Position numbers and translations under genes: made by a program | Assembly: GCF_014651495.1 (NCBI RefSeq) | Contig: NZ_BMWZ01000006.1 | Location: 74,697 to 138,696, forward strand | Reading direction: 5' to 3' | Length of the DNA stretch: 64,000 nucleotides | Origin: Algibacter mikhailovii | GTDB taxonomy: Bacteria > Bacteroidota > Bacteroidia > Flavobacteriales > Flavobacteriaceae | The notes under the pieces: model-generated | Seen by the model: only the letters and a program-made list of their open reading frames with translations | The model's database searches: none | Told to the model about the DNA's origin: nothing | Shown here: positions 26,826 through 47,263 of the stretch, piece after piece | How the letters are laid out: each line of letters opens with the position of its first letter | Position numbering within the stretch: position 1 is the stretch's first letter

Positions 26826-27485
26826 TTAGTCTATTTTTTTAGGGATAATATTGTTCTTCTCTAGAGCTTTTAGAAGTTTTGCGATATACGTACTAATCGC
26901 TTTAGAATTGTTTTCTGGATCGACCAAATCGAAAGTAGCTCTCCACGCCAATGTATTTTCAGAATCTTTTTTTAAATCGTAAACAGAGGTTTCAATATTA
27001 TAAACTTTATACTTGTTGTAGTCATCTTGAGTGAAATAAGCGTCTTGATATGCTAAATAGTAGCCTATAAACTTTCTTAAGTGGTAATCCGTTTTTGGGG
27101 AATCGGCGGCATAAGATTCATTATCGTCAATACCTTTTACGAGAGACACTAGTGCGGTATCGTATCCATTAGATAATAGTTTATCTACTTGATCTTTAAT
27201 TTCTTTTTTGGTTTGCCAGGAATCTTGAAATGATTCTTCAAATACTACGGCACTTTGTAAGGCCTTTATGTTTCTTGCATTCAATGCTGTTATGAGTTGA
27301 AACTCATAAGCTTTGCGTGCTTCATAATTGGGTGTTACACCAACAACTAATATTTTTTTTGGATTAAAATGTTTGTAATCAGGGTTTTGCCAGTTTGTAA
27401 TTAGTTTTGATGAAGAACATCCAAGTACCATTGATAGTAAAATCAAGACTATGCTAGTACTAATTTGTGATTGGAAATTATTCAA
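26826..27485 (-). CDS. hypothetical lipoprotein (paralogue of the upstream gene)
   Basis: This 219-residue protein has a lipoprotein signal with lipobox MVLGC (Cys23). After it comes the segment KLITNWQNPDYKHFNPKKILVVG. The same pattern, ELTENWKNPDIDTYSPTKVLLVG, occurs in the preceding gene, and both share the spacing of Tyr-rich central and DP-containing C-terminal parts. The two are therefore diverged tandem duplicates. The reading frames overlap by eight bases, so they are co-transcribed. Function is unknown; they sit at the edge of a stress-gene cluster. Confidence 0.82.
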   Translation of the reverse strand: MNNFQSQISTSIVLILLSMVLGCSSSKLITNWQNPDYKHFNPKKILVVGVTPNYEARKAYEFQLITALNARNIKALQSAVVFEESFQDSWQTKKEIKDQVDKLLSNGYDTALVSLVKGIDDNESYAADSPKTDYHLRKFIGYYLAYQDAYFTQDDYNKYKVYNIETSVYDLKKDSENTLAWRATFDLVDPENNSKAISTYIAKLLKALEKNNIIPKKID

Positions 27486-28146
27486 TAGCTTCCTCTTTTA
27501 ATTGGTCTTTCAAATACATAGATTCTATAAGTTGCTGCTCTTCTAAAACAACTATAACAAGTCTTACAAAATCATTTACACTCTCACTAATAGATGTTGG
27601 ATCCATAACATCTATATACCCTTTCCAAATAAGTTCGCGTTCTTTTGTTGGGCATATACAATACATAGATGTTTCGGTATGATAAACTGTATACTCTTTA
27701 TAATAATCTGGGTTATAAAAAGCATCTTGATATTTTAAGTAATCGTCGCTAAATCGCCTATAAGTCGCATCATAACCATCATAATTTTCTTTGTACGCAA
27801 TTTGGTCTTCTACACCTATTACTTTTGTGAACAATACCGTGTCAAAACCACCTTTGATAAGTTTGTTTTCCAAGGTTTTTAATTGTTTTGTAGTCTTCTT
27901 TTCAGTGGTAAATGATGGGGCGAAAAGATCTAAACTCCTAACAGATTCTATGCCTCTAGAAGTATATTCATCTTGTAACTGTTTTTCAAATTGCTGTCTG
28001 GCTTCCATATTTGAAGTCATGCCAACCAATAAAACTTTAGTAGGGCTGTAGGTATCTATATCTGGGTTTTTCCAGTTTTCAGTTAACTCTGTTGTAGAGC
28101 AACTAAAGATTAGTACACCAAGTAATATGGAGGTTATTAATTTCAT
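27478..28146 (-). CDS. hypothetical lipoprotein (first of a tandem pair)
   Basis: The 222 residues begin with a lipoprotein signal peptide (lipobox IFSC, Cys16), followed by a domain shared with the next gene: an ENWKNPD start, a VLLVGMTSNMEAR strand-turn-helix and a C-terminal WKGYIDVMDP stretch. The family is not one I can name. It is placed 10 bases after a small helical protein gene and overlaps its paralogue by eight bases, giving a likely three-gene transcript. Confidence 0.82.
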   Translation of the reverse strand: MKLITSILLGVLIFSCSTTELTENWKNPDIDTYSPTKVLLVGMTSNMEARQQFEKQLQDEYTSRGIESVRSLDLFAPSFTTEKKTTKQLKTLENKLIKGGFDTVLFTKVIGVEDQIAYKENYDGYDATYRRFSDDYLKYQDAFYNPDYYKEYTVYHTETSMYCICPTKERELIWKGYIDVMDPTSISESVNDFVRLVIVVLEEQQLIESMYLKDQLKEEAIE

Positions 28147-28156
28147 TTTTATGGTA

Positions 28157-28600
28157 TTATGGTAGTAAACGTTTTTGTTTATACTCCTTTAAAACACCTT
28201 TAACAAGGGCAAATAATTGTGATTTAAATATTCTGTAGCGAGTTAAAAAATCGGATATTTTAATAATAAGTTTGCCGTGTTCATCTTTATAAGCATTTTC
28301 TAATGTAATTTGGTTTATGCCATCTACCATAATATTAAGCCCTTTTTCATGCTTTTTCACCGTATCAATGAACGCATTGGTTTCTTTTTTGAACTTACTT
28401 AATTCGTTTACAATGATTTTACTTTCATTAAAATGTTTTGAATCAATAAGTTGAAGTGTGTATGATTTTACTAAATCAGCAAAAAAAAGTTGTTCATCCT
28501 TAGCAAACTCTAATTCAGACAACCATTTTTTCGATGTATTATGCATGCTTTCCGGACTTAACCAAGCTACATATTTTGGGGTTTTGATTTTAGTTTTCAT
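28157..28600 (-). CDS. hypothetical cytoplasmic helical protein
   Basis: This 147-residue protein has no signal peptide, is predicted largely helical, and is rich in Lys and Glu. I do not recognise its family. It is the first gene of a unit with the two tandem lipoproteins (10-base gap) and lies just downstream of the hsp20 terminator. Its upstream region contains only a half copy of the palindrome that precedes other genes of the island. Confidence 0.65.
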   Translation of the reverse strand: MKTKIKTPKYVAWLSPESMHNTSKKWLSELEFAKDEQLFFADLVKSYTLQLIDSKHFNESKIIVNELSKFKKETNAFIDTVKKHEKGLNIMVDGINQITLENAYKDEHGKLIIKISDFLTRYRIFKSQLFALVKGVLKEYKQKRLLP

Positions 28601-28714
28601 CTTTTGAAGTGTTAATATTAAAAATATATCAGATCTAATGCGCCATAAATCATTTTGGTGGGGAATACCGTTTCGTTATTATAGTTCATTTTCTTGTTTT
28701 CAAATTTTAGAATT

Positions 28715-28758
28715 TAAAAGCGCAGAAAGTAACCCATAGATTACAGACTACTTTCTGC
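28715..28758 (-). terminator. putative terminator of hsp20
   Basis: A ten-base inverted repeat, GCAGAAAGTA (28722-28731) and TACTTTCTGC (28749-28758), lies just after the hsp20 stop. On the minus strand the stem is followed by CGCTTTTAAATT, a short T run. Confidence 0.6.
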
Positions 28759-28767
28759 TTGAGGGAA

Positions 28768-29295
28768 TTAATTAACTTCAATCACTTTTTTTTCAGGTTC
28801 TTGAGTCATTTCTGCTTCTTCTTTTTTAAGAAGTTTCACTGTTAAAATTCCATTTTTGTAAAGTGCTTTTACATCTTGGTCTAAATCTACCGAAGTAGGA
28901 AGCATCATAGATCTTTTAAAGGATTTATAACTAAACTCTTTACGAGAATATTCGCCATCCTTTTCTTCTTCGTTTTTAAGTTCTTTTTCACCGTTAACAT
29001 AAAGAACATCATCCTGTATGGTAACTTCAAAATCTTTTTTGCTAAAGCCAGGAGCTGCTAATTCAATTTCAAAATCTTCGTCATGTTCTATAACATTTAC
29101 AGGAGGCATCAAGCTATCATCTTCAAAGAAATCATCTTGAAAAATATCGTCAAATCTTCCCATGCTATTAAAATTGGAAGGGAATAATCTACTACTCCAA
29201 GGTCTTAAAAGACTATGACTCCAGGGCGTTAACAATTGACTTTCAAATGGCGAAAATCTATTTCTTTTTCTTTTGTGTTTTGTTAATGTTGTCAT
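28768..29295 (-). CDS. Hsp20/alpha-crystallin small heat-shock protein
   Basis: Small heat-shock proteins are ATP-independent holdases. From the ATG at 29295 the protein is 175 residues. An Arg/Lys-rich, Phe-rich N-terminal arm is followed by the alpha-crystallin domain (about 65-160), with the typical VIEHDEDFEIELAAPGF start, the DDVLYVNGEK strand and the core motif ALYKNGILTVKLLKK. The open frame extends further upstream to 29385, but those residues overlap the -7 box and activator-like site of its promoter, so the shorter start is right. It carries its own copy of the shared promoter type found across the island. Confidence 0.95.
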   Translation of the reverse strand: MTTLTKHKRKRNRFSPFESQLLTPWSHSLLRPWSSRLFPSNFNSMGRFDDIFQDDFFEDDSLMPPVNVIEHDEDFEIELAAPGFSKKDFEVTIQDDVLYVNGEKELKNEEEKDGEYSRKEFSYKSFKRSMMLPTSVDLDQDVKALYKNGILTVKLLKKEEAEMTQEPEKKVIEVN

Positions 29296-29329
29296 GATAC
29301 ATATTTTTAGGTTAAACATATTTTCATAA

Positions 29330-29372
29330 CTAATATATTTACTATAACAAGGTTGTACAATGATATGCATCA
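29330..29372 (-). promoter_or_regulatory. Fnr-like activator site plus -7 box of hsp20 (site 1)
   Basis: In gene direction: CTGATGCATATCATT with core TGAT-N4-ATCA at 29372-29361, then exactly 23 bases, then TATATTAG at 29337-29330. The ATG is 34 bases further on. The layout puts the palindrome near -41.5. Confidence 0.8.
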
Positions 29373-29409
29373 GTCCGTTACCCAAATTCAGAATTATGTT
29401 TCCAACCTT

Positions 29410-30786
29410 TTAGTTGATACTAATTTGTTCTATATCATTAAGTTTAGGAATAGTCACATGCCAGTTATAAGTGTCTTTTAGTTTTACACGCAACGCATCT
29501 AGAGCCATTGGTTCACCATGGATTAAATAGACGTTTTCTGGAATATTTTTAATGTTACTTAACCAATGCAATAAATCGTTTTGGTCTGCATGCGCAGAAA
29601 GGCTTTCAATATTTTTAACGGTTGCTTTCACAGGATAATATTTTCCAAAAAAGCGAATTTCGTGAGCCCCTTCTTGTAACTGTCGCCCCCGAGTGCCTTC
29701 TGCTTGATAACCTACTAGTAAAACCGTAGTTGATGCTTGGCCTATAAGTTGTTGCATATAAGTAAGTACACGTCCTCCCGTGACCATACCACTACCAGCA
29801 ATAATTATTTTAGAACGCTTATCATCAATGGTTTCCCAAGTTTCTTTATAAGATTCAATAATATTCATATGGTTGCACATGGCTCGATACTCTGCTGTTG
29901 ATAATTTATGCCAATTTGGAAATCGCTCAAACACCTCTAAAACATTATTACCCATAGGGCTATCTATAAAAATAGGAATGTTTGGAATTCTATTTTCCTT
30001 ATATAGTTTCCAAAGTAGATACATGAGCATTTGTAAACGCTCCACAGCAAAACTTGGAATGATTAAATTTCCTTTTTTATGGATGGTTTCGTTAATGAGC
30101 CTTGATAACACCTCTTGAATATTGTCCTTTGGATGTAACTTATTGCCGTAGGTACTTTCCATAAACAAAAAATCTGCCCACTCTGGTTTTTTGGGAGCTT
30201 CTAATAAATGGTCATTAGTCCTGCCAATGTCTCCAGAAAACACAAAGCGTTTGCCGTATACATCTAATTCAATGAAAGTAGCACCAATAATGTGGCCGTT
30301 ATATTGAAAGCGATATGATATATGTTCTGACAGCCATATCCATTTATCTGGTGCTTCTACTTGAAATTGCGCTATGGTTTTTTCTGCTTCAATTTTTGTG
30401 TAAAATGGCAATGCAGGATCATGTTTTGTGAATTTTTCATCATTTGCTTTTTTAGTAAATTCTTCATGAATTTTAGCACTGTCTTTTAAAATAATTTCAG
30501 CAATGGCTAGAGTAGGAGCTGTACCAATAATTTTACCTGTAAAACCTTGTTTTAATAATCTTGGTAAATACCCTACATGATCTAAATGCCCATGGGTTAG
30601 TATTACCAGATCAATGGTTGAGACATCTATTGGTAAATCAATCCAATTTAGTTCCCTGAGTTCCTTTATACCTTGAAACATGCCACAGTCTATCAATATT
30701 TTTTTATCTGCAGTTTCTATAAGAAATTTAGAACCAGTAACAATACCTGCGGCTCCTAAAAAATGGATGTTTACAAAATGGTTCAT
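29410..30786 (-). CDS. MBL-fold/beta-CASP RNA-processing exonuclease-like protein
   Basis: This 458-residue cytoplasmic protein is a metallo-beta-lactamase fold with an inserted beta-CASP domain, as in CPSF73/Ysh1-type and bacterial RNA nucleases. Visible motifs are HGHLDHVGYLPRL (motif 2, about 65-77), GHIIGATFIEL, FSGDIGR, a beta-CASP segment around 205-370 with GSGMVTGGR, SLSAHADQNDLL, and a C-terminal LIHGEP. The zinc ligands look complete, so it is probably an active nuclease. It is second to last in a long minus-strand stress operon, between a Mrr-like nuclease and hsp20, with a 12-base gap to the former. Confidence 0.9.
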   Translation of the reverse strand: MNHFVNIHFLGAAGIVTGSKFLIETADKKILIDCGMFQGIKELRELNWIDLPIDVSTIDLVILTHGHLDHVGYLPRLLKQGFTGKIIGTAPTLAIAEIILKDSAKIHEEFTKKANDEKFTKHDPALPFYTKIEAEKTIAQFQVEAPDKWIWLSEHISYRFQYNGHIIGATFIELDVYGKRFVFSGDIGRTNDHLLEAPKKPEWADFLFMESTYGNKLHPKDNIQEVLSRLINETIHKKGNLIIPSFAVERLQMLMYLLWKLYKENRIPNIPIFIDSPMGNNVLEVFERFPNWHKLSTAEYRAMCNHMNIIESYKETWETIDDKRSKIIIAGSGMVTGGRVLTYMQQLIGQASTTVLLVGYQAEGTRGRQLQEGAHEIRFFGKYYPVKATVKNIESLSAHADQNDLLHWLSNIKNIPENVYLIHGEPMALDALRVKLKDTYNWHVTIPKLNDIEQISIN

Positions 30787-30797
30787 CAGTGACTGTT

Positions 30798-31640
30798 TTA
30801 AAGGTTACACAGCATTTTTATTTCTTTCAATATTTTTTCTTTTCTGATTTCCGATATGCCTAAATGGTCTAAATAAAAGGTGTCTCCAACCAACATTCTG
30901 CATAGCACCACATCTCGACTTAGTAAAAACTGTTTTTCTCTTTTGGTTAATAACGTGGATACGGTAATTGGATACAATCCCAAGCGGTCTATACGATCTT
31001 TTAATCCATCATTCTCAGGGTAATCCCAACTTAGTAAATAGAGGTTTATGCATTTGCCGTATTTAAGCGCATCTGCTGTAAATCTTGTATTTGTGACTAC
31101 CCAGCCTTTGCTATTTAAAGGTGTCTTTTTTGCATTAATATGCCAATGCGCTTTTATATCATTGTAGCGAGAGTGTATATAAAGCGGAATTTTAACATTG
31201 CAATTAAGCCCTTGCACGCTATGGAATTTACATTCAATAACCGTAGTTTCATTATTTTTATGAGCCATGACATCAATTTCGTGAGTAACACATTGTCCTT
31301 GTAGAATTTTATTGAACTCAACGTCATATCCTGAATATTTCAGTATTGCACCAATAAAGCGTTCAAAAGGAAAACCTGTTGGGCCGAGCTCGTATATGGC
31401 CTTTTTTAACTTGTATTTTGAAGCTAAATAACTTTTCTTCTTTTTAAGTAGTGCAAATGCCCTGTTGTAAATTTCTTTTGTGGAAATACCTTGATATAAT
31501 TCATCTCTAACTTTATCAATTATTTGATTAACCGTTTTCTGATCGGCCCCGGTACGTTTCAAAGAATTTTTTAATTTTTCCAATGAAAACTTTACTTTTT
31601 CTCCTGAGGATTTAATAATATCTATTGTACCCGTTTCCAT
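30798..31640 (-). CDS. ATP-cone / Mrr-type restriction endonuclease fusion
   Basis: The 280 residues begin with an ATP-cone domain (about 6-85), a nucleotide-sensing module best known from ribonucleotide reductases and NrdR. A Mrr-type PD-(D/E)xK nuclease follows (about 88-190), with Glu93 in PFERFIGAIL, Asp123 in HEIDVMA and Glu136-Cys137-Lys138 in IECKF. A small C-terminal helical part (about 225-280) resembles a helix-hairpin-helix DNA-binding element. No methyltransferase is near, so it is not an ordinary restriction system. It is embedded in the universal-stress operon, and nucleotide-controlled DNA cleavage or repair is an inference. Confidence 0.82.
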   Translation of the reverse strand: METGTIDIIKSSGEKVKFSLEKLKNSLKRTGADQKTVNQIIDKVRDELYQGISTKEIYNRAFALLKKKKSYLASKYKLKKAIYELGPTGFPFERFIGAILKYSGYDVEFNKILQGQCVTHEIDVMAHKNNETTVIECKFHSVQGLNCNVKIPLYIHSRYNDIKAHWHINAKKTPLNSKGWVVTNTRFTADALKYGKCINLYLLSWDYPENDGLKDRIDRLGLYPITVSTLLTKREKQFLLSRDVVLCRMLVGDTFYLDHLGISEIRKEKILKEIKMLCNL

Positions 31641-31669
31641 AATGCTATAACATTTGAGTTTTTAAATAA

Positions 31670-32080
31670 CTACAAGCTCTTTTCTTTGAAAAAAGCCTTG
31701 ATCCTAGCTTTAGCTTGTGGTTTAGTCATACTATCCATTTTTACAACATCTTGAACTTTATCACTTAGTTCTTTATGTTTATCAATTATAAATCTATTCA
31801 ATTTTAAACAGGTTTCTGCCGGACCAAATAGCACAATAGCTTGAGCTTCTTTAATTTCTGAAATGATAGTTTCAAAATATTTTCTAAATTGATGTTTTTC
31901 ACGTTCCAAGTATTTACTGTCTTGTACTACATCTTGCGGACCGCCTTTAAACCGAGTGCCAGATCCCCCATGAATCCGGTAGTTTTCTATATTTGACATT
32001 ATTGTTTTTTCACTAATTTCCTTATTTCCAAGGGTAACAAGGAAGGCCTCTTTTTTATCTAACCAAATTCCTACTTTCAT
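31670..32080 (-). CDS. conserved hypothetical protein, eRF1-domain-like
   Basis: This 136-residue cytoplasmic protein begins MKVGIWLDKKEAFLVTL and contains QAIVLFGPAETCLKLNRFI at about 90-108. That pattern of strand, Gly-Pro and helix resembles domain 2 of eRF1-like bacterial release-factor-related proteins. The family assignment is tentative, and no catalytic motif is claimed. It lies between the universal stress genes and the ATP-cone nuclease in one minus-strand transcript with gaps of 19 and 29 bases. Confidence 0.65.
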   Translation of the reverse strand: MKVGIWLDKKEAFLVTLGNKEISEKTIMSNIENYRIHGGSGTRFKGGPQDVVQDSKYLEREKHQFRKYFETIISEIKEAQAIVLFGPAETCLKLNRFIIDKHKELSDKVQDVVKMDSMTKPQAKARIKAFFKEKSL

Positions 32081-32099: not shown

Positions 32100-32960
32100 T
32101 TAATATTTATTTCTTAAGTCGTGCATTGCCAAAAGTGGCACTTTTGTATGGTAACCAATTTCCTTTACCAAAGGGTGCGTTAGCAAACTCCCAAAAAGCA
32201 AATGCTTTTTATTAATGAAAGCCACCATATCGCTGTTTCTACTCTGAACAAAACAATTAATTGCTGTGAATATATTCATATGACTTAGGGTATGGAATGA
32301 AAACCTGACCCCTTCAAAATACGCTTCAAGCTTTTTTTTGTTATTGTGTTGTTCCTTATTAAGTTTTTTATGAGTAAAGACGTGCAATACCCGAATTGAG
32401 GCATTACAGGTTCTTGCTAAATCAATCAAATGGTTTAATTCTCTTCTTTTAAATGGCGTTTTGTAGCCTGTTGGAAAAACGATTTCTTTTGGCAAGGCTA
32501 TATTGGCTATTTCTGGAACCACAATGACAGAGCAGTGTCTAACTTTTTCCATAACATCTATGGATACCGTACCGAATATTTTTTTTCTTGAACCTGTCTT
32601 ACCTTTGGTTCCCATAACAATCATTTCTATGCCCTTTTCTTCTACGATATTCTGAATAGCCTGAACAACACTATTACATGTTGAAATCGTTTTAAAACTA
32701 TGTTTTGCGTTTTCATACTCATTTAAAGAAATCACATCTAGCACTTTAGCCAGTCCGTTTTCAGAATCTAATCGTTCTGTTTCATACATTTCACTCCCAG
32801 GCTCCATACTTATGAACGATTCTAATATATTATGCGTAGCACTAAATGCGTTTAGGATGTAAAAATTACAATGATCTTTTTGATATAATTCTAAAGCATA
32901 GCGCAAGGCATGCCAAGCATTTTTTGAAAAATCTGTTGGTAATAATATGTTACGCCTCAT
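32100..32960 (-). CDS. tandem-domain universal stress protein
   Basis: The 286 residues form two UspA domains. The first has the MRRNILLPTDFSKNAWHAL start and the nucleotide-binding loop G-x2-G-x9-G(S/T) as GTKGKTGSRKKIFGTVS (about 117-133), so ATP binding is expected. The second domain starts KEIVFPTGYKTPFKRREL and lacks the loop. It is the fourth of four consecutive usp genes read from a single promoter at 35.6 kb, 60 bases after the previous one. Confidence 0.92.
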   Translation of the reverse strand: MRRNILLPTDFSKNAWHALRYALELYQKDHCNFYILNAFSATHNILESFISMEPGSEMYETERLDSENGLAKVLDVISLNEYENAKHSFKTISTCNSVVQAIQNIVEEKGIEMIVMGTKGKTGSRKKIFGTVSIDVMEKVRHCSVIVVPEIANIALPKEIVFPTGYKTPFKRRELNHLIDLARTCNASIRVLHVFTHKKLNKEQHNNKKKLEAYFEGVRFSFHTLSHMNIFTAINCFVQSRNSDMVAFINKKHLLFGSLLTHPLVKEIGYHTKVPLLAMHDLRNKY

Positions 32961-33020: not shown

Positions 33021-33851
33021 CTATTCTGGTATAACCAAAAAAGGGACAATGGGATCAAATCCTATTTTTTTTATAACTGGTTCGTTTATAATTTTTTCAA
33101 TAAAACTGTGTTTATAATTTACCATAGCAAGAATATCTATCCCTAATTCTTCAATAAAATCATTGATTTCAACTGTTTTTTTATCATACTTTGGCATCCA
33201 GTGCAGACTGTGTTCATAATCACTTAAATGGCTTTGTAACATATTGATATTGTACTCTTGCACATCGTTAAGCTCTTCCGCTTCATTGATATGTACTATT
33301 CTAATTTTGGAATTGTATAAATCTGCTAATTGTTTTAAAGGGATTAATTCTTTATTGTCATAAAATCGATTAAAATCTGTTGGGAATGCAATTTGTTTTG
33401 GGGTCGTAAAATTGAATTCTTCCGGTACAACCAATACAGGACAGTTTTTAATACTTTTTATGATGTGTACCGTATTACTTCCAAAGAAGTATTCTTTTAG
33501 TCCCGTAGCGCCTTTTGTACCCATTATAAGTAAATCTACCTGAAACTCATCAATAGCTGCTTGAATGGCATTTTTTAGGTCTTTAGTACTTAAAATTATT
33601 TGAAAGTCATGGTTTGCGTTAGTATTGTTATGTTCAATTAAATCTTTCATTTCTAATAACTCCTTTAGGGCATTATTTTCCATGGTTTTAAGTAGTTTAT
33701 TTGAAAGATTGGACATTGTTGATGCTTTTAACCTGACTACATTTAAGAGATAGAATGTACACTCTTCATCTTTAAAGAGTTTCAATCCATAACCTATGGC
33801 GTCCCATGAATTGGTTGAAAAATCGGTTGGAAATAATATATGTCGTTTCAT
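33021..33851 (-). CDS. tandem-domain universal stress protein
   Basis: This 276-residue protein has two UspA domains. Domain 1 begins MKRHILFPTDFSTNSWDAI and carries an intact ATP-binding loop, GTKGATGLKEYFFGSNT. Domain 2 begins KQIAFPTDFNRFYDNKEL and has no loop. It is the third gene of the four-gene usp array and begins 12 bases after the second. Such proteins often work as dimers that sense adenylate levels or bind regulators during stress. Confidence 0.92.
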   Translation of the reverse strand: MKRHILFPTDFSTNSWDAIGYGLKLFKDEECTFYLLNVVRLKASTMSNLSNKLLKTMENNALKELLEMKDLIEHNNTNANHDFQIILSTKDLKNAIQAAIDEFQVDLLIMGTKGATGLKEYFFGSNTVHIIKSIKNCPVLVVPEEFNFTTPKQIAFPTDFNRFYDNKELIPLKQLADLYNSKIRIVHINEAEELNDVQEYNINMLQSHLSDYEHSLHWMPKYDKKTVEINDFIEELGIDILAMVNYKHSFIEKIINEPVIKKIGFDPIVPFLVIPE

Positions 33852-33863
33852 TGCCTTTGGTTT

Positions 33864-34706
33864 TTAAGTTTTTGCTGGAATTACTAAAAATGGAATGTTT
33901 AAATGAAATCCTATTTGATTAATCGTGTTCTTGAAAAACAGATTTTCAAAAAACGAATGTTTATTATTTATCATCACTAATAAATTTACTTTGGCTTTTA
34001 ATTGAAAATGGTTAATGGCTTCTGTCACTGTTTGCCCTGATACATCAGTAAACAATGGTGTTATTTTATTTAAATGTGTCTCTAGATTTTTCTTGTTATT
34101 CTCTTGATTACTAGATAGCTCATAGCCGTATGACGCGTGTAAAACATGGACTCTAGAATTATGTAATGATAGAATATTAATAAGCGGTTTTATATGTTTA
34201 TTTTTGTAATCAAGCTTATAATCTGTTGGAAAAAGGACTTCATGTGGTGCCTCAAAAGCAAAATCTTCTGGGATTGCTAGTACTGGACATTTTGTGTTTT
34301 TAAATACATGAACTGTATTCGTTCCAAACAAAACTTCTTTAATGCCTGTGGCTCCTGTTGTTCCCATTACTATATAGTCAATAGATTGCTTGGTAACAAC
34401 GTCATTCACTTCTGAAATCAAAGTATTAAAAGCCACCATAGTTTCTATGGTATGCTTTGGATTGTTAAATTCTTTTTTAATTCTCGTTTTGAAATCATCT
34501 AACTGTTTTAGCGCATTTTCTCTTACAAGGTCTCCCAGGTCATATTCGGCCGGATGTATTTCAACAAACTCTACCTGATAAATTACAGGCGTGTAGGTGT
34601 TTAATAAGAAAAACGTACAGTACTCGTCTTTGAACAGTTGCAATGCATAAATTATCGCGTTCCAAGAGTTCTTGGAAAAATCGGTGGGAAGCAGAATTTT
34701 TTTCAT
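33864..34706 (-). CDS. tandem-domain universal stress protein
   Basis: These 280 residues make two UspA domains. The first has MKKILLPTDFSKNSWNAI and the loop GTTGATGIKEVLFGTNT, in which Lys is replaced by Thr compared with the sister copies but all glycines are kept. The second starts HEVLFPTDYKLDYKNKHI. It is the second gene of the usp array, 23 bases after the first. Confidence 0.92.
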   Translation of the reverse strand: MKKILLPTDFSKNSWNAIIYALQLFKDEYCTFFLLNTYTPVIYQVEFVEIHPAEYDLGDLVRENALKQLDDFKTRIKKEFNNPKHTIETMVAFNTLISEVNDVVTKQSIDYIVMGTTGATGIKEVLFGTNTVHVFKNTKCPVLAIPEDFAFEAPHEVLFPTDYKLDYKNKHIKPLINILSLHNSRVHVLHASYGYELSSNQENNKKNLETHLNKITPLFTDVSGQTVTEAINHFQLKAKVNLLVMINNKHSFFENLFFKNTINQIGFHLNIPFLVIPAKT

Positions 34707-34729: not shown

Positions 34730-35578
34730 TCATTTGCGTTTAATATTCTGTAATGCTAAAAATGGAATATCAAGATTTAAGCTTAATTCATCTAGTGGGG
34801 ATTGAAAAATAATATTCTCTAAAAAAGAATGCTCTGTGTTAACCATTACTAGCATATCGCTATGTTGTTCTCTTATGTATTTGTATACAGAATTAATAAG
34901 ATGCTTACTGTTTTCTGTTTTAAAATTCACCCTGTTTTTACACAGTTCATCTTTCATAAACCCCTTGTTCTCTTGTTGTCTGCGCGATAGTGTATTGCTT
35001 TTAGAGATGTAGATAACATCTATTATAGCTCTGTATGGAGCGGCGATTTCGCAAAGTAATTTTAGCTCCCTTCTCTTATAGGGTATCATGAAATTTGTTG
35101 GAAAAAGAATATGCTTGGGTTTTATGTATGCATGTCGCTCTGGTATTGCCAAAACTGGACATTGCACATATTTTATAATTTGTAAGGTGTTGCTCCCAAA
35201 GGTTACTTTGGTATTATTAGTTTTTCCTTTAGTTCCCATCACTACAAGGTCAATATTTTCTGCATCTACAAGTCTATCAGTTTCATCTAAAAGCATATTA
35301 TTGGCAGCACATGAGTGAAAAGTATGTCGGGGGTTGGGAGAAATATTAAGAATATCGCTTTTAATTTTTTGTAGCTGCTCTTCAGTTTTTTTACTGGTCA
35401 TTAGGGATACCCTATCTAGTGTTTCCGTAGCCAGCAATTCCTCATCAGAATAAATATCATCTTGATATGCATGCATGATATAAAACTCGCTAACTTCATA
35501 CTTAAATAAGTTTATAGCATAAATTAGAGCGTTCATAGCATTCTCTGAAAAATCGGTAGGAATCAATATTTTTCTCAT
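34730..35578 (-). CDS. tandem-domain universal stress protein, first gene of the usp operon
   Basis: The 282 residues contain two UspA domains. Domain 1 starts MRKILIPTDFSENAMNAL and has the loop GTKGKTNNTKVTFGSNT. Domain 2 starts KHILFPTNFMIPYKRREL. It opens a minus-strand run of seven closely spaced genes: four usp genes, the eRF1-like protein, the ATP-cone nuclease and the beta-CASP nuclease. A copy of the shared Fnr-like promoter lies 49 bases upstream of its ATG, which should set the expression of the whole run. Confidence 0.92.
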   Translation of the reverse strand: MRKILIPTDFSENAMNALIYAINLFKYEVSEFYIMHAYQDDIYSDEELLATETLDRVSLMTSKKTEEQLQKIKSDILNISPNPRHTFHSCAANNMLLDETDRLVDAENIDLVVMGTKGKTNNTKVTFGSNTLQIIKYVQCPVLAIPERHAYIKPKHILFPTNFMIPYKRRELKLLCEIAAPYRAIIDVIYISKSNTLSRRQQENKGFMKDELCKNRVNFKTENSKHLINSVYKYIREQHSDMLVMVNTEHSFLENIIFQSPLDELSLNLDIPFLALQNIKRK

Positions 35579-35596: not shown

Positions 35597-35639
35597 TAAA
35601 AATAAATACTAAACCGCTAGATTACAATGATATATATCA
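35597..35639 (-). promoter_or_regulatory. Fnr-like activator site plus -7 box of the usp operon (site 2)
   Basis: In gene direction: CTGATATATATCATT with TGAT-N4-ATCA at 35639-35628, 23 bases, then TATTTTTA at 35604-35597. The usp ATG is 18 bases after the -7 box. Confidence 0.8.
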
Positions 35640-35980: not shown

Positions 35981-36023
35981 CTAAAGTAAATCAATGTGAC
36001 ATAATAGAAAATGATATCCATCA
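35981..36023 (-). promoter_or_regulatory. orphan Fnr-like activator site plus -7 box (site 3)
   Basis: On the minus strand: CTGATGGATATCATT with the core at 36023-36012, 23 bases, then TACTTTAG at 35988-35981. This is the same layout as the six gene-associated copies. No annotated gene starts within 400 bases downstream, before the terminator and the next promoter. Confidence 0.75.
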
Positions 36024-36425: not shown

Positions 36426-37274
36426 TTAGTTTTTTTCATGAAGTACTAAAAAAGGAATTTCTGTATGATAGCTAATTTCTTCAACCTTTGAATGAAATAG
36501 AATTTGCTGAAAATAGTTTAAATTTTTTGCAACCATACAGATCATATTTATATCTCTACTTTCTACAAAACACTGGATAGCATCTTCTACTTTTTTATTA
36601 GTCAAAAAATGAAAGCTATGGGGAAGATGACTAAAATAGTCATCTAACAAATCTTTATTTCTATTTTGATCATTGTCTAGAGCATCTTTGTTTTTACAAA
36701 TGTGAAGAATCTTCAGAGCAGATTTACTAGTTCCTAAAATGTCAAGAATAGGTTGTAACACCTGTAAGTTGTAGGTTAAATAAAAATCTGTTGGGAATGC
36801 AATTTCTTCCAGTTTTATAAATTCTGCACTTTCTGGCACGACTAAAGTGGTGCATTTTACTTTAGTAATAACATCGCTTGTGTTGCTCCCAATAATAATT
36901 TTCTTTAAACCAGAAGCCCCTTTGGTTCCCATAACAAGATAATCTATCCGCTTATCTGCTACTTGTTTTCTAATAGATTCGATAAAAAAACCATATTCCG
37001 AAACGGTGTAAAATTTATGCTTTTTATTAGGTGAAAATTGTTCTGTTATCTGCTTTAAGATTTTACGAAGTCCTGCTTTTGCTGGTTTTGTGTAAACAGC
37101 TTCTATCGTTTCTTCTGTAGCTATATAGGGGGCATCATTTAACATAAAGTTATCAAATTTATTTACATGGAGTAAATAAAAATAGCAGGCTTCGTATTCA
37201 AAATAATTGATAGCATACTTAATGGCATTCCAAGAATTTTCTGAAAAATCGGTAAGTAGAAGTATATTTTTCAT
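36426..37274 (-). CDS. tandem-domain universal stress protein
   Basis: The 282 residues make two UspA domains. The first begins MKNILLLTDFSENSWNAI and has the ATP loop GTKGASGLKKIIIGSNT. The second begins EEIAFPTDFYLTYNLQVL. It forms a two-gene unit with the small membrane protein. It has its own Fnr-like promoter (site 4) 52 bases before the ATG and lies directly downstream of the LOV kinase/Crp-type regulator operon on the same strand. Confidence 0.92.
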   Translation of the reverse strand: MKNILLLTDFSENSWNAIKYAINYFEYEACYFYLLHVNKFDNFMLNDAPYIATEETIEAVYTKPAKAGLRKILKQITEQFSPNKKHKFYTVSEYGFFIESIRKQVADKRIDYLVMGTKGASGLKKIIIGSNTSDVITKVKCTTLVVPESAEFIKLEEIAFPTDFYLTYNLQVLQPILDILGTSKSALKILHICKNKDALDNDQNRNKDLLDDYFSHLPHSFHFLTNKKVEDAIQCFVESRDINMICMVAKNLNYFQQILFHSKVEEISYHTEIPFLVLHEKN

Positions 37275-37295: not shown

Positions 37296-37338
37296 CTAAT
37301 GTACAGCTAAGTTGTTTGGGATAAAATGATATTAATCA
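37296..37338 (-). promoter_or_regulatory. Fnr-like activator site plus -7 box of a usp gene (site 4)
   Basis: In gene direction: ATGATTAATATCATT with TGAT-N4-ATCA at 37338-37327, 23 bases, then TACATTAG at 37303-37296. The ATG is 21 bases after the box. Confidence 0.8.
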
Positions 37339-37361: not shown

Positions 37362-38417
37362 CTAAGAAATATGTTCTAATTTTTGAATATCTATAACCTT
37401 AATATTTCGTCCTTCGGCTACAATAATGCCTTGTTTTTTAAATTCTGTCAAGGCTCTTATTAAAGTTTCTGGGGCAATGCCTGCTACACTTGCTAAATCA
37501 TTTCTTGAGATTTTTATGGGGTCCTCTGGTTTACGATTAATTTTTTGTGCAAATTTTAAGATGGTTGCTGCTGTTTTTTGGTTTACTGAACCATAAGCCA
37601 TACGTATAAGTTGCTCCTTCACAACAGATAAGTCTTCTGTTAAAAGATCAACAAGTGCTAATACAACCTTATGGTTTTTATTAAGCATGGCCGTAAAATC
37701 TATAATGGAGATACCCAGAAGACTAGCATCAGCAATGGCAGTTGCAGTTTCTTTATGCGGAATAGTTTGAGTAAACGAGGTATAACCAAATAAATCATCT
37801 TCTTTATATAACGCGGTAACCAGTTCTTTTCCTTGATGGTCTATTCTATGACATTTTACGGCGCCTTTACTAATTAAATAGATGTAGTTTGAATGGTCCT
37901 CTTCCCGATAAATTATGGTATCATTTTTAAACGTAAATTCTTTCCCATTATCATCAAAGAAATTTTTTAAATCATTAAGTGATTTTATGTCGTTTTCGCC
38001 TGAAGGATTTGATTCAAAGTCTTGAGGACTGTTCAATTCTTGTAAAATAGAAACTTTAGCCAATCTACTTTCAATCGCGCTAATAAGTTCATCTTCTGTA
38101 AATGGTTTGGTTATATAATCATCTGCGCCTAAATTCATACCTTTTCTAACATCGGTACGCTCTGTCTTAGCAGATAAAAATATAAAGGGTATAAACTTTG
38201 TTAATTCACTTTCTGAAAGGGTTTTAAGCGCTGCATATCCGTCAAGTTCAGGCATCATAATATCACACACAATAATATCCGGATGTTGCTTTTTAGCTAA
38301 GGATACGCCAATTTTTCCATTTGAAGCTGTAATCACCTTATAGCCAGAAAGCTCTAAGAGCTCAGCAGTATTTTCTCTTAAAACGGTATCGTCTTCAATA
38401 AGTAAAATAGTTGTCAT
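37362..38417 (-). CDS. response regulator: REC domain fused to Crp/Fnr-type DNA-binding module
   Basis: The 351 residues contain a receiver domain (1-118) with phospho-acceptor Asp52 (IIVCDIMMPELDG), Lys104 and the usual acidic pair. A cyclic-nucleotide-binding-like beta barrel follows (about 145-250), then a dimer helix and a Crp-family helix-turn-helix (about 300-345). In the recognition helix, Glu317 and Arg321 have the same spacing as the base-reading Glu and Arg of CRP and FNR, which contact TGA half-sites. Cysteines for an FNR iron-sulfur cluster are absent. Its ATG overlaps the kinase stop by four bases. I infer that it binds the TGAT-N4-ATCA promoters around it. Confidence 0.93.
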   Translation of the reverse strand: MTTILLIEDDTVLRENTAELLELSGYKVITASNGKIGVSLAKKQHPDIIVCDIMMPELDGYAALKTLSESELTKFIPFIFLSAKTERTDVRKGMNLGADDYITKPFTEDELISAIESRLAKVSILQELNSPQDFESNPSGENDIKSLNDLKNFFDDNGKEFTFKNDTIIYREEDHSNYIYLISKGAVKCHRIDHQGKELVTALYKEDDLFGYTSFTQTIPHKETATAIADASLLGISIIDFTAMLNKNHKVVLALVDLLTEDLSVVKEQLIRMAYGSVNQKTAATILKFAQKINRKPEDPIKISRNDLASVAGIAPETLIRALTEFKKQGIIVAEGRNIKVIDIQKLEHIS

Positions 38418-40294
38418 AGTTTGGCCTTATTTGGAAATTCAATTATAAATGTACTTCCTTTATGTTCCTCACTTTTAAAGGAAATGGTTCCACCTAAGTT
38501 TTCTAAATGGTTTTTAGCAATATTTAAGCCTATACCTGTACCCTGTGAGTTAATCACGTTTTTAGCTCTAAAATAGCGCTCAAAAATACGTTTTTGGTCT
38601 ATTTTAGGAATGCCAATACCTCTATCTTTTACTAAGACCGTTGTATTGGTATTGTCTTGCTTAATATGTAAATCAATAGCTGTTTTTTCAGGCGAATATT
38701 TGATCGCGTTATGTAACAAGTTTGAAAAGATCAATTGAATTATTTTCTCATCTTGATATAGTGAGATTTCATCAATATTTTCAGGGTAATTTATTTTCTG
38801 TCCTTCTTTTAAAAGCATATTGGCATTATATACCACTTCATTAACAACTTTGCTCAGTTTAAAATGATTTAATGTATAATTTACTTTTCCGGTATCTAGT
38901 TTTTCAACAGACAAGAAGTCGTTAAGGATGTTGTTTAAAAAGTGAACCCTTTCATTTATTATTTTTATGTGCTTATTTCTTTTCTCTTGATGTTCGGTAA
39001 GTTGGTATTTACTCAATAATTGGCTTGAGGTTAAAATACCACTTAAGGGGGTTTTAAATTCATGAGACACCAAGGATAAAAAATTTGTTTTTAACTCGTT
39101 AAGCTCTTTTTCATTGCTCAGTGCCATTTTGAGCTGTTGCGTTCTTTCCTCAACTTTGTTTTCTAGTTGAGTGGTATAATTTTTACGATCGGTAATATCT
39201 AATATGATCGCAACAAAAACTTTATTTCCACTCAAATTAGATAATTGCAAATGAACCTCTACGGGATATTTTGAGCCATCTTTACGCTGGTGTTCTGTTT
39301 CAAACTCAACCTTTTCCACCTTTTTATTTAGCAATACATCAATCTTTTTTCTGAATTCATCCTTATTATTATCTGGTTTAATATCCAATGGCGTCATTGT
39401 CTTTAATTCATCAAGACTATAACCTATATTTTTTTGAGCACCATAGTTAGCATTGATAAATTTTAATGTGTCCGAATCAAAAACATAGATTTCATTAAGC
39501 GATTCATTAAAAATTGTGGCAAGATGATTGCGCTCTTCTTCTGACTTTATTCTCAGGGTAACATCATTTTGTATACCTATAAAATTTGTTACATTCCCAT
39601 GTTCATTGGTAATAGGAAAGACATATAAATCATTCCAAAACATGGTGCCATCTTTTTTATAATTACGCAATGTAGCTTGGCAGCTCTCTTTGTTTTTTAT
39701 CGCTTCCCTTAACTTTTTTAGAGGAGGTTGGGCTCTATCTTTACCTTGTAAGAACCTACAATTATGATTAAGTATTTCGGCATCAGAGTATCCTGTAAGG
39801 TTCTGAAATGCAGAATTAAAATAAATCACGGGGTTATCATGCCTCTGCGCATCGGTAATAATAACACCATTTTTTGCCGATTGCAATGCTTGCGTTCTAA
39901 GCATCAAGTTTCTCTCAATGGCTTTTTTTTCTGAAACATCTTTAACCAAAGCCATGACATAGGTTTTGTTATATATTTTAAATGGATTTAATTCAACTTC
40001 AATATGGAAAATAGTACCGTCTTTTTTTAATCCATAAAGGTCCCTTGCTTCACCCATTTTTCGTGGCTTTCCTTTTTGAATAAACTTTTCAAAATATGTC
40101 GCATGCTCTAAATGGTAATTGGAAGGTAATAGCAAGTTCAATTCTCTATCAATAAGTTCACTTTTGGCGTACCCAAAAATACGTTCAGCAGACGCATTAA
40201 CCTCTACTATGATTTGATGACTGTCTACAATGATAACAGCCTCAGAAACAGTTGCTAGTAGAATATTAAATATTTCTTGGTCTTGCTTAAACAT
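38414..40294 (-). CDS. LOV-domain (blue-light type) histidine kinase with three PAS domains
   Basis: The 626-residue soluble kinase has PAS1 (about 8-120), a LOV-type PAS2 (about 130-247), PAS3 (about 258-370), a coiled coil, and HisKA/HATPase domains (about 400-622). Phospho-acceptor His411 lies in VSHEFKTPLSG; Asn529, the DRGIGIP and GTGIGL boxes are intact. PAS2 carries NCRFLQ with Cys179, and Asn211, Asn221 and Gln242 at offsets of 32, 10 and 21 residues, identical to oat phototropin LOV2. Flavin binding and cysteinyl-adduct photochemistry are therefore expected. There are no membrane helices. It is translationally coupled to the REC-Crp regulator. Redox sensing by the same flavin is an alternative. 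Confidence 0.93.
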   Translation of the reverse strand: MFKQDQEIFNILLATVSEAVIIVDSHQIIVEVNASAERIFGYAKSELIDRELNLLLPSNYHLEHATYFEKFIQKGKPRKMGEARDLYGLKKDGTIFHIEVELNPFKIYNKTYVMALVKDVSEKKAIERNLMLRTQALQSAKNGVIITDAQRHDNPVIYFNSAFQNLTGYSDAEILNHNCRFLQGKDRAQPPLKKLREAIKNKESCQATLRNYKKDGTMFWNDLYVFPITNEHGNVTNFIGIQNDVTLRIKSEEERNHLATIFNESLNEIYVFDSDTLKFINANYGAQKNIGYSLDELKTMTPLDIKPDNNKDEFRKKIDVLLNKKVEKVEFETEHQRKDGSKYPVEVHLQLSNLSGNKVFVAIILDITDRKNYTTQLENKVEERTQQLKMALSNEKELNELKTNFLSLVSHEFKTPLSGILTSSQLLSKYQLTEHQEKRNKHIKIINERVHFLNNILNDFLSVEKLDTGKVNYTLNHFKLSKVVNEVVYNANMLLKEGQKINYPENIDEISLYQDEKIIQLIFSNLLHNAIKYSPEKTAIDLHIKQDNTNTTVLVKDRGIGIPKIDQKRIFERYFRAKNVINSQGTGIGLNIAKNHLENLGGTISFKSEEHKGSTFIIEFPNKAKL

Positions 40295-44208: not shown

Positions 44209-44251
44209 TGATTTATATCATTGACCAAAAGCTAAATACGAAGTAGATTAG
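44209..44251 (+). promoter_or_regulatory. Fnr-like activator site plus -7 box of a PNPOx-like gene (site 6)
   Basis: CTGATTTATATCATT with TGAT-N4-ATCA at 44209-44220, 23 bases, then TAGATTAG at 44244-44251. The gene start is at 44278. Confidence 0.8.
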
Positions 44252-44277: not shown

Positions 44278-44826
44278 ATGATTACTAATTTAAATAAACA
44301 GGAATGCCTCAAAATACTTAATAATAATTATATAGGTCATCTAGCTTACGTCTATAACAACTTGCCATTTGTAATACCTATTACGTATTTTTTCGATAAA
44401 AAAAACATGACTATTATTGGGTATACTGGTGAAGGTCATAAAACCAAAGCATTGAAACAGAACAATGCCATAGCACTTGAAATTGCAGAGATTTCGTCTG
44501 TAAATAAATGGAAATCTATCTTAATTCAGGGTGATTTTGAAATACTGGATGGGCCAGACGCAAAGAGTGAACTACATAAATTTGCTGTAGGCGTAAAAAA
44601 ACTAATTACACAAAATGAAAACAAAACATTTCATTTTATTCCTGATTTTTCTGGTAAAACAAATTCTGAAGTTGCACCTATAGTTTACCATATAAACATT
44701 CATGAAATAACGGGGAAGGAACGTAATTCTCAGGAGAATGACTTTTTAAAGCGGTATTCAATGGGACATGAAAAAGGTTTAAGGAAGATAAAAACTGATG
44801 TAGTGAATTATTTAAAAATCAGTTGA
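44278..44826 (+). CDS. pyridoxamine 5'-phosphate oxidase-like flavin-binding protein
   Basis: The 182 residues form a split-barrel FMN-binding fold of the PNPOx-like/NimA-like group, with NNYIGHLAYVYNNLPFVIPITYFFD at the N-terminus and TGEGHKTKALKQNN typical of the flavin-binding region. Members reduce nitro compounds or bind flavin or haem; the exact reaction is unknown. A close homologue lies at 45456. It has the shared Fnr-like promoter and is followed by a small secreted PepSY-like gene. Confidence 0.82.
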   Translation: MITNLNKQECLKILNNNYIGHLAYVYNNLPFVIPITYFFDKKNMTIIGYTGEGHKTKALKQNNAIALEIAEISSVNKWKSILIQGDFEILDGPDAKSELHKFAVGVKKLITQNENKTFHFIPDFSGKTNSEVAPIVYHINIHEITGKERNSQENDFLKRYSMGHEKGLRKIKTDVVNYLKIS

Positions 44827-46300: not shown

Positions 46301-46343
46301 TGATAAATATCATTTCAAAAAAAGGCAGGTCTTTTTAAATTCG
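46301..46343 (+). promoter_or_regulatory. Fnr-like activator site plus -7 box of a usp gene (site 7)
   Basis: CTGATAAATATCATT with TGAT-N4-ATCA at 46301-46312, 23 bases, then TAAATTCG at 46336-46343. The usp ATG is at 46364. Confidence 0.8.
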
Positions 46344-46363: not shown

Positions 46364-47263
46364 ATGAAAACAATTCTATATGCTACAAATTGCACAGATA
46401 ACGATGCCCATGCATTAAAATACGCTTACAGATTTAGTAGTATTCTGGGTGCTAATTTACATGTATTGCATGTTTATAATTTACCACCAATTGCCTTTTC
46501 TACTATTAATCCAACTGGATCACTAAAAAAAAGAATGCATGAAGAACGCATGCATCTGCTAGAAAAATATTGCAAGAAACATCTTAAAAACGAATTTCAT
46601 CAAAATCCTATAACGACCCACGTTGTGGAAAGTGATTCTGTTTCAGCCAGTATTTCACGGCTTTCAAAAGTAATCACTCCAGATTTAGTTATCATTGGTA
46701 TGAAAGACTCCCATAGTAACAGAGGTTATTTTGCCGGTAATATTGCAAATACACTTTTAGATACTATTACTGTGCCTTTGCTAATTGTGCCAAATAGCTT
46801 AGTTTATGAAACCATATCTACCATAGTATACGCCACAGATTTTGAAGAAGTTGATATCTTATCTTTACAGAAAATCACAGAAATTGCTAAGCCGTTTTCG
46901 GCGCTTATAGAAGTTGTACATGTATATGAAACGGATGACTACCCAGCCAATAAATATATGGAACGGTTTAAGGAAGCCTTTTTAAAAGATAGAGCTTATC
47001 CAGAAATAATCTTTAAAACCATGGCGTCTAGCAGCATTAAATCTGGCTTGTTGCGTGTACTAAATAATGAAAAAGCTAGTATGCTAACTATGTTAGAGCG
47101 TAAGCACGATTGGAGTTTTTCCAATATTTTTCAAAAGGATCTAGTAAAAGATATGGAAATGTCTTTAAAGATTCCTTTACTCGTATTTAATAAACATAAT
47201 AAAACATTTCAAAACGAAGGCCACGAGTATTTTAGTGAGAATGAAATGCTAAGTATGCCATAA
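46364..47263 (+). CDS. tandem-domain universal stress protein with degenerate nucleotide loop
   Basis: The 299 residues contain two UspA domains, beginning MKTILYATNCTDNDAHAL and, in the second, STIVYATDFEEVDILSL. The loop equivalent to G-x2-G-x9-G(S/T) reads GMKDSHSNRGYFAGNIA, so one glycine and the terminal Ser/Thr are lost and ATP binding is doubtful. It is the most divergent of the six copies and stands alone with its own site 7 promoter. It is convergent with the Mla-type operon. Confidence 0.9.
   Translation: MKTILYATNCTDNDAHALKYAYRFSSILGANLHVLHVYNLPPIAFSTINPTGSLKKRMHEERMHLLEKYCKKHLKNEFHQNPITTHVVESDSVSASISRLSKVITPDLVIIGMKDSHSNRGYFAGNIANTLLDTITVPLLIVPNSLVYETISTIVYATDFEEVDILSLQKITEIAKPFSALIEVVHVYETDDYPANKYMERFKEAFLKDRAYPEIIFKTMASSSIKSGLLRVLNNEKASMLTMLERKHDWSFSNIFQKDLVKDMEMSLKIPLLVFNKHNKTFQNEGHEYFSENEMLSMP

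Follow-up and report, generated by a model that had tools for sequence, protein, structure and literature searches.

The 64,000-nucleotide stretch of Algibacter mikhailovii DNA analysed here (the window, from a genome of 4.44 Mb in 39 contigs) carries a sensor histidine kinase gene (38414-40294, minus strand, 626 residues) that overlaps by four bases the gene of a response regulator (37362-38417, minus strand, 351 residues) in which a receiver (REC) domain is fused to a Crp/Fnr module. The reading that we prefer, with a probability of about 0.58, is that the kinase takes two inputs, oxygen through a heme-type PAS domain (PAS1) and blue light through a LOV domain, and drives the fused FNR-type regulator of a stress and low-oxygen survival regulon. 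PAS1 would bind heme and read oxygen (or nitric oxide, carbon monoxide or redox state) as FixL does, while the LOV domain would bind flavin and form a photo-adduct at Cys179 in blue light. Both signals would pass along linker helices through a further PAS domain (PAS3) into the kinase core, whose His411 is predicted to pass a phosphoryl group on to Asp52 of the neighbouring regulator. The Crp/Fnr module of the phosphorylated regulator would recognise TGAT-N4-ATCA dyads that lie about 55 bp ahead of start codons and activate Usp, Hsp20 and energy-metabolism genes, in a putative stress and low-oxygen survival programme. The polarity of the signals is not predictable from sequence.

A first-pass annotation of the window had proposed that blue light, or the flavin redox state, controls a Crp-like transcription factor by phosphorylation. 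The sequence, the synteny and the conserved residues all speak for a LOV kinase acting on a Crp-type regulator by phosphotransfer, but light is probably not the sole input, since PAS1 is FixL/DosP-like and probably heme-binding.

Sensor domains and core of the kinase

The Pfam domains of the kinase (PAS stretches, three of them for PAS_9, followed by HisKA and HATPase) and of the regulator (Response_reg, cNMP_binding and HTH_Crp_2) agree with the open reading frame coordinates and with the four-base overlap that had been described for this pair. Combined with searches of PDB sequences and a family alignment, they give the kinase the order PAS1-LOV-PAS3-HisKA-HATPase.

When PAS1 (residues 1-125; 39920..40294, minus strand) was searched against PDB sequences, the top 13 matches were all FixL (seven) or DosP/EcDOS (six, two of which stand under older names and are presumably the same protein), with E-values from 4.5e-15 (1dp6, FixL) to 3.5e-11, while PAS domains of other proteins started at 6.5e-6. 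The alignments place H64 on the proximal His of FixL and R84 on its distal Arg, which we take to be H200 and R220 in BjFixL numbering, with a spacing of 20 residues in both proteins. H64 lies on a predicted helix (residues 58-74) in the AlphaFold2 model, where the predicted local distance difference test score is only 58-76. After identical kinase C-termini had been dropped from the family alignment (174 to 164 rows), the His was found in 152 of the 164 unique rows, comprising all 78 kinases without LOV and 74 of the 86 with it (row L047, in which PAS1 was not detectable, being counted as His-less), and the Arg in 91 (67 of 78 and 24 of 86), though these raw contrasts ignore relatedness. The likeness in sequence to FixL and DosP suggests a PAS1 that probably binds heme. 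The kinase as a whole scored far under the cut-off of the NCBIfam FixL model NF041777 (116 vs 850 bits) and is therefore not filed as FixL. In a Foldseek search with the PAS1-LOV-PAS3 model, DosP chains took ranks 1-5 and Brucella LOV-PAS structures came next; FixL PAS dimers appeared from rank 24 onwards.

The LOV region (approximately residues 131-250; 39545..39904, minus strand) matched PF5-LOV best among PDB sequences (7r5n, E 2.7e-34), and YtvA and phototropin entries were also found. The residues reported in the first-pass annotation, an NCRFLQ motif with C179 followed by N211, N221 and Q242 at offsets of 32, 10 and 21, proved correct, and the same offsets separate what we take to be positions 450, 482, 492 and 513 of oat phototropin LOV2. 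The window motif reads NHNCRFLQ, with Asn where the GxNCRFLQ motif has Gly. Of the family's 86 unique LOV kinases, 82 have the Cys and 75 the Gln, the two Asn are present in 85 and 86, and 71 combine all four residues. A chance LOV-like motif was ruled out by the matches to solved LOV proteins and by this conservation. The comparisons thereby confirm, at the level of sequence, a genuine LOV domain with intact photochemical residues, for which flavin binding and a photocycle would be expected. The kinase stayed below the whole-protein NCBIfam cut-offs of the YtvA family (NF052652, 187 vs 250 bits) and of the blue-light-activated histidine kinase (NF052306, 126.8 vs 450 bits); among the 25 best of 88 NCBIfam families, the generic sensory_box model alone was above cut-off.

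The position of Gln242 is substituted in 11 of the 86 LOV kinases, by Leu in nine and by His in two (rows L044, L052, L066, L114, L117 and L118 among others). Four kinases lack the Cys (L046, L130, L172 and L177, with Ile, Ser, Leu and Leu) and adjoin the usual regulator; they are natural candidates for flavin-redox sensing. For the engineered kinase YF1, the available portion of PMC9098866 reports that a Gln-to-Leu exchange retained the photocycle and attenuated signalling, and that Gln-to-His abolished the photocycle; signalling by Cys-less LOV domains through photoreduction is described as possible in the part of PMC4682037 consulted.

PAS3 (approximately residues 255-374; 39173..39532, minus strand) was recognised by Pfam and had a single solved match, 3bwl, named 'Sensor protein'. 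In the kinase core (approximately residues 375-626; 38414..39172, minus strand), the phospho-accepting H411 is conserved in 174 of 174 family alignment rows and the N and G boxes are present. Two relatives, L057 and L164, exceed 800 residues and retain PAS1-LOV-PAS3; by eye, a GAF-like stretch lies between PAS3 and the kinase core of L057.

The fused regulator and its kinase partners

Across the family rows of the regulator, the receiver residues D9, D52 and K104 are found in 164 of 164, D10 in 163 of 164 and a Ser or Thr at position 82 (S82 in the window) in 164 of 164. The Crp/Fnr half passed its Pfam cut-offs (PF00027, 54.2 vs 27.5 bits; PF13545, 51.4 vs 27 bits). Its nearest solved relative by sequence was FixK2 (E 7.4e-12), narrowly before a Crp/Fnr protein (1.6e-11), FNR (1.9e-11) and CAP (3.7e-11), while by fold (Foldseek) CRP proteins took the first places, FixK2 rank 41 and FNR ranks 47-48. 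Within the recognition helix, E317 and R321 are invariant in all 163 filled rows, and such a Glu-Arg combination fits a TGA-type half-site. The cyclic-nucleotide Arg-Ser signature is absent from the regulator (DLFGYTSFTQTIPHKETATA; read by eye), and no N-terminal Cys cluster for an FNR-type Fe-S centre, likewise sought by eye, was seen in its 351 residues. Identification as a cyclic AMP receptor or as an Fe-S FNR was set aside on these two absences, because of which the fused module probably depends on the REC domain for its input. Among the 25 best of 108 NCBIfam families, none was above cut-off for the regulator. Elsewhere in the window, Pfam finds two proteins that combine TPR with an adenylate/guanylate cyclase (11515-13479 and 24761-26590). 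They form a cyclic-nucleotide route, in the same genome as a REC-Crp regulator without the nucleotide signature.

The regulator was searched for at an E-value of 1e-30 or better in 299 genomes drawn from the window's family and was present in 139. A non-random set of 100 of these loci (the 60 best listed and 40 weaker ones) was fetched, and a kinase lay directly upstream of the regulator in every one. The architecture was PAS1-kinase in 64 loci and PAS1-PAS3-kinase in 14, while 22 carried a LOV domain between PAS1 and PAS3 (one of them with no detectable PAS1). In 95 of the 100 loci, a same-strand Usp frame opened within 500 bp downstream of the regulator. In a second scan of named genomes, which partly overlaps this set, a REC-Crp gene stood directly downstream in 73 of the best 80 of 284 confirmed LOV loci and was absent there in seven; seeded with the LOV domains of this family, the scan is biased towards them and is no measure of LOV outputs generally. 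Such recurrence, in 100 of 100 regulator loci and in 73 of the 80 named LOV loci, puts the association of the pair far beyond chance. Whether or not LOV is present, the kinases of this family have the REC-Crp protein as their regular partner, so the Crp-type output that had been called unusual for a LOV kinase is ordinary here; among other LOV kinases it may be unusual. The closest LOV relatives from named genomes come from Flavivirga, Algibacter, Seonamhaeicola and Hyunsoonleella, all marine Flavobacteriaceae.

A tree of the 164 unique kinase-core and regulator rows (quick search, LG+G4; 74 of 161 inner branches well supported, with row L176 on a very long branch) shows that LOV presence changed at least 14 times, parsimony being unable to distinguish gain from loss, and it offers ten independent pairs on well-supported branches. 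Set against seven LOV domains from outside, those of the family nearly form one group (two changes), and their distances track those of kinase plus regulator (r 0.74, with 0 of 999 permutations as high); since both are so, an old LOV domain that was lost repeatedly is favoured. In the ten independent comparisons, the PAS1 Arg was lost on the LOV side in 4.9 on average and in 0.3 the other way, a sign test on the independent pairs pointing in the same direction with a median p of 0.0625. The His was lost in 1.2 comparisons on the LOV side against 0.0, and its sign test was uninformative. By the raw counts, the heme site is weaker where LOV is present.

FNR-like dyads in a stress-gene island

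The pair lies within an island that comprises six Usp genes, one Hsp20 gene and one flavin-fold gene. On the minus strand, the next gene after the regulator encodes a universal stress protein of 282 residues (36426-37274, Pfam), and four more Usp genes (PF00582) follow at 34730-35578, 33864-34706, 33021-33851 and 32100-32960, with the small heat-shock protein Hsp20 at 28768-29298. On the plus strand lie a protein of the pyridoxamine-oxidase fold (44278-44826), the flavin-fold member, and the sixth Usp gene (46364-47263). The window contains six FNR-like TGAT-N4-ATCA dyads, against 2.1 expected (one of 100 shuffles reached six); all of them lie between 29361 and 46312 and fit TGATNNATATCAT. Five are centred 47-63 bp before starts: 37327..37338 (58 bp before Usp 36426-37274), 35628..35639 (55 bp before Usp 34730-35578), 44209..44220 (63 bp before the gene at 44278-44826), 46301..46312 (57 bp before Usp 46364-47263) and 29361..29372 (47 bp before the first in-frame Met of Hsp20, whose likely start is further down). 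The sixth, a perfect dyad at 36012..36023, lies about ten bases past the end of a 128-residue membrane-protein-like open reading frame, with no start (of frames of at least 60 residues) within 160 bp. A strict FNR box, TTGAT-N4-ATCAA, had no exact match in the window, and with up to one mismatch it occurred 10 times vs 8.1 expected; it was replaced by TGAT-N4-ATCA.

That pattern came from an unbiased enumeration of dyads in 358 regions upstream of Usp genes in the fetched loci, where TGAT-N4-ATCA ranked first, occurring in 121 regions vs 3.0 in shuffles of two-base blocks; 106 of 127 sites were centred 50-69 bp before the start codon. A dyad at 45-75 bp preceded 105 of 356 Usp genes vs 25 of 576 other open reading frames in the fetched loci, and 104 of 318 vs 48 of 420 in the named set, while a control dyad at that distance occurred 0-2 times per set. 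In the A. mikhailovii genome, TGATNNATATCAT had 28 matches vs five for the reversed pattern; as two sites are read on both strands, the matches occupy 26 distinct places, and six of these fall in this island, within 17 kb around the regulator. Other intergenic dyads stand 63-83 bp before genes assigned by Pfam to lactate/malate dehydrogenase, pyruvate-phosphate dikinase, SPFH/Band-7, TonB-type, YceI and CitMHS-type transporter proteins, those at the YceI and CitMHS-type transporter genes reading away from the gene. Counts of ATGATANNTATCAT across the 299 family genomes showed, by eye, no split by regulator presence, and no conclusion was drawn from them.

Rival readings and known systems

Several observations weigh against the dual-input reading, at both ends of the proposed path. 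R84 is kept in only 24 of the 86 LOV kinases, and the window protein has both His and Arg but its nearest relatives lack the Arg; with the Arg scarce in LOV kinases and absent from these relatives, the oxygen chemistry of PAS1 may be altered or fading. The Cys is missing in four of the 86 LOV domains, as described above, and the inter-domain confidence of the structure models is moderate (predicted template modelling scores of 0.46 and 0.48). At the promoter end, the dyad at 36012-36023 has no gene in reach (a small RNA or a short gene there is possible), and of the 28 matches in the genome, 12 are covered by open frames of at least 150 residues. One of these 12 is the Hsp20 site, under an opposite-strand frame, and many such matches are probably chance. 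Moreover, among regulator-less genomes (60 of 160 such genomes, chosen by the authors, were searched and 30 returned loci examined), the dyad occurred in six of 30 Usp upstream regions vs 121 of 358 with the regulator, proportions that do not differ significantly (Fisher p 0.16). The own genome also holds four other Crp-type proteins above cut-off, two of them with similar-looking recognition helices. Because the presence of the regulator makes no significant difference, other Crp-type proteins can probably read the same dyads, and the probability of the dual-input reading was lowered slightly on this account.

The rival that gained by the same result, that the regulator controls something else and another Crp/Fnr protein reads the Usp and Hsp20 dyads, is unlikely in our view and yet the one that we take most seriously. 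Besides the dyads in regulator-less genomes and the four further Crp-type proteins, it can draw on five of the 30 regulator-less genomes, in which a same-strand Usp gene is directly preceded by a Crp-type gene of one-component size. These adjacent genes can, however, be read the other way, as a different Crp-type protein doing the same job: since they precede Usp genes in five of 30 genomes, they suggest that control of Usp genes often falls to a Crp-type regulator next to them, and that the two-component version does this job too. The concentration of six of 26 dyad places within 17 kb around the regulator, and a recognition helix whose invariant Glu and Arg fit a TGA-type half-site, also argue for the regulator itself as the reader.

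The retreat of the heme-site residues raises a different doubt, namely that the kinase senses light only (or flavin redox only), with a PAS1 of heme-PAS descent whose heme and gas sensing is gone in the LOV-bearing members. Arg has been lost in 62 and His in 12 of the 86 LOV kinases, compared with 11 and none of the 78 without LOV, and the averages over the ten independent comparisons lean the same way for both residues. We nevertheless regard this as rather improbable, as 74 of the 86 LOV kinases retain the His, the window protein has His and Arg alike, and the sign test gives the median p of 0.0625 for Arg and no information for His. The converse, an oxygen-only kinase in which LOV is structural or a flavin-redox reader with no part in light responses, seems the least probable of these alternatives. 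LOV is evidently dispensable, being absent in 78 of 100 loci and showing 14 or more changes on the tree, and Cys-less and Gln-less versions exist in the family, but the window kinase and 71 of the 86 LOV kinases have all four photochemical residues, and Cys-less or Gln-less variants elsewhere signal in light according to the available parts of PMC4682037 and PMC9098866.

The dual-input reading can be drawn more sharply, as an oxygen and blue-light coincidence detector in which a FixL-type heme PAS and LOV kinase would drive a fused FixJ-FixK-like regulator of a hypoxia- or dormancy-type Usp regulon, the Flavobacteriaceae having repeatedly lost (or gained) the LOV cassette and the heme site decaying where LOV stays. 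This fuller version is tentative and falls a little short of an even chance.

The pair resembles a FixL-FixJ-FixK system with its last two members fused, a resemblance and nothing further. In the FixL-FixJ-FixK2 cascade of Bradyrhizobium and Sinorhizobium, which targets nitrogen fixation and respiration, a soluble histidine kinase likewise bears a FixL-like heme PAS, the final regulator is likewise of Crp/Fnr type, FixK2 being narrowly the nearest solved relative here, and the target dyads are FNR-like. Unlike that cascade, the window would have the FixJ and FixK roles fused in one REC-Crp protein, LOV and a third PAS domain are inserted, the targets look like Usp and Hsp20, and the kinase falls far below the NCBIfam FixL cut-off. 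DosP and other heme-PAS sensors are similar to PAS1 in fold and sequence, but DosP is, by its NCBIfam name, a cyclic di-guanosine monophosphate phosphodiesterase and not a kinase, and has no LOV domain. Brucella LOV-HK and Caulobacter LovK share the LOV-PAS-kinase order, in line with the Brucella LOV-PAS structures found by Foldseek; these have an HWE-type core and regulators other than Crp-type, whereas the window kinase has a HisKA-type core (Pfam) and a Crp-type DNA-binding partner. The consulted portions of PMC4844311 and PMC4438053 tie the LOV histidine kinases of Brucella and Caulobacter to general stress responses. Counterparts in design are the engineered kinases YF1, in which the YtvA LOV is placed on FixL, and YHF, which like the window kinase, with its probable heme PAS, joins LOV and heme PAS on a FixL-type kinase; a review, in the part available (PMC6798134), describes a cooperative response of YHF to blue light and oxygen through its combined LOV and heme PAS. 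YHF is a laboratory chimera, whereas the window kinase is natural, with the order heme-type PAS, LOV, further PAS and with its own REC-Crp partner.

No description of a natural kinase with LOV and heme PAS, or of a LOV kinase with a REC-Crp partner, was found in searches of open-licence PMC papers, an absence that is no proof of novelty. The single parts are of known kinds; what appears new to us is that they are combined, that the combination is conserved and that it was gained or lost repeatedly. For many bacterial LOV proteins no output is known; here, a complete candidate route leading from the sensor to promoter sites can be drawn up and tested. The kinase would be a natural counterpart of the laboratory-built light-plus-oxygen kinase, with relatives that exist with and without the light module and offer ready natural controls for adding or dropping a sensor domain in a working kinase. 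A possible use is as a source of optogenetic parts with an FNR-type promoter.

Further along the window, a minus-strand island (26826-32080) runs on from the Usp genes. It contains a beta-CASP metallo-RNase (29410-30786), whose best NCBIfam match, below cut-off, is the type VII CRISPR Cas14 MBL model, an ATP-cone protein with an Mrr-type nuclease (30798-31640), a 136-residue protein and two proteins that look lipoprotein-like by eye, these last three with no Pfam match at 0.001. A secreted protease-like protein (by eye) of 2069 residues is encoded at 14575-20784 and contains a run of near-perfect short repeats (NGISLVNGISLVN...).

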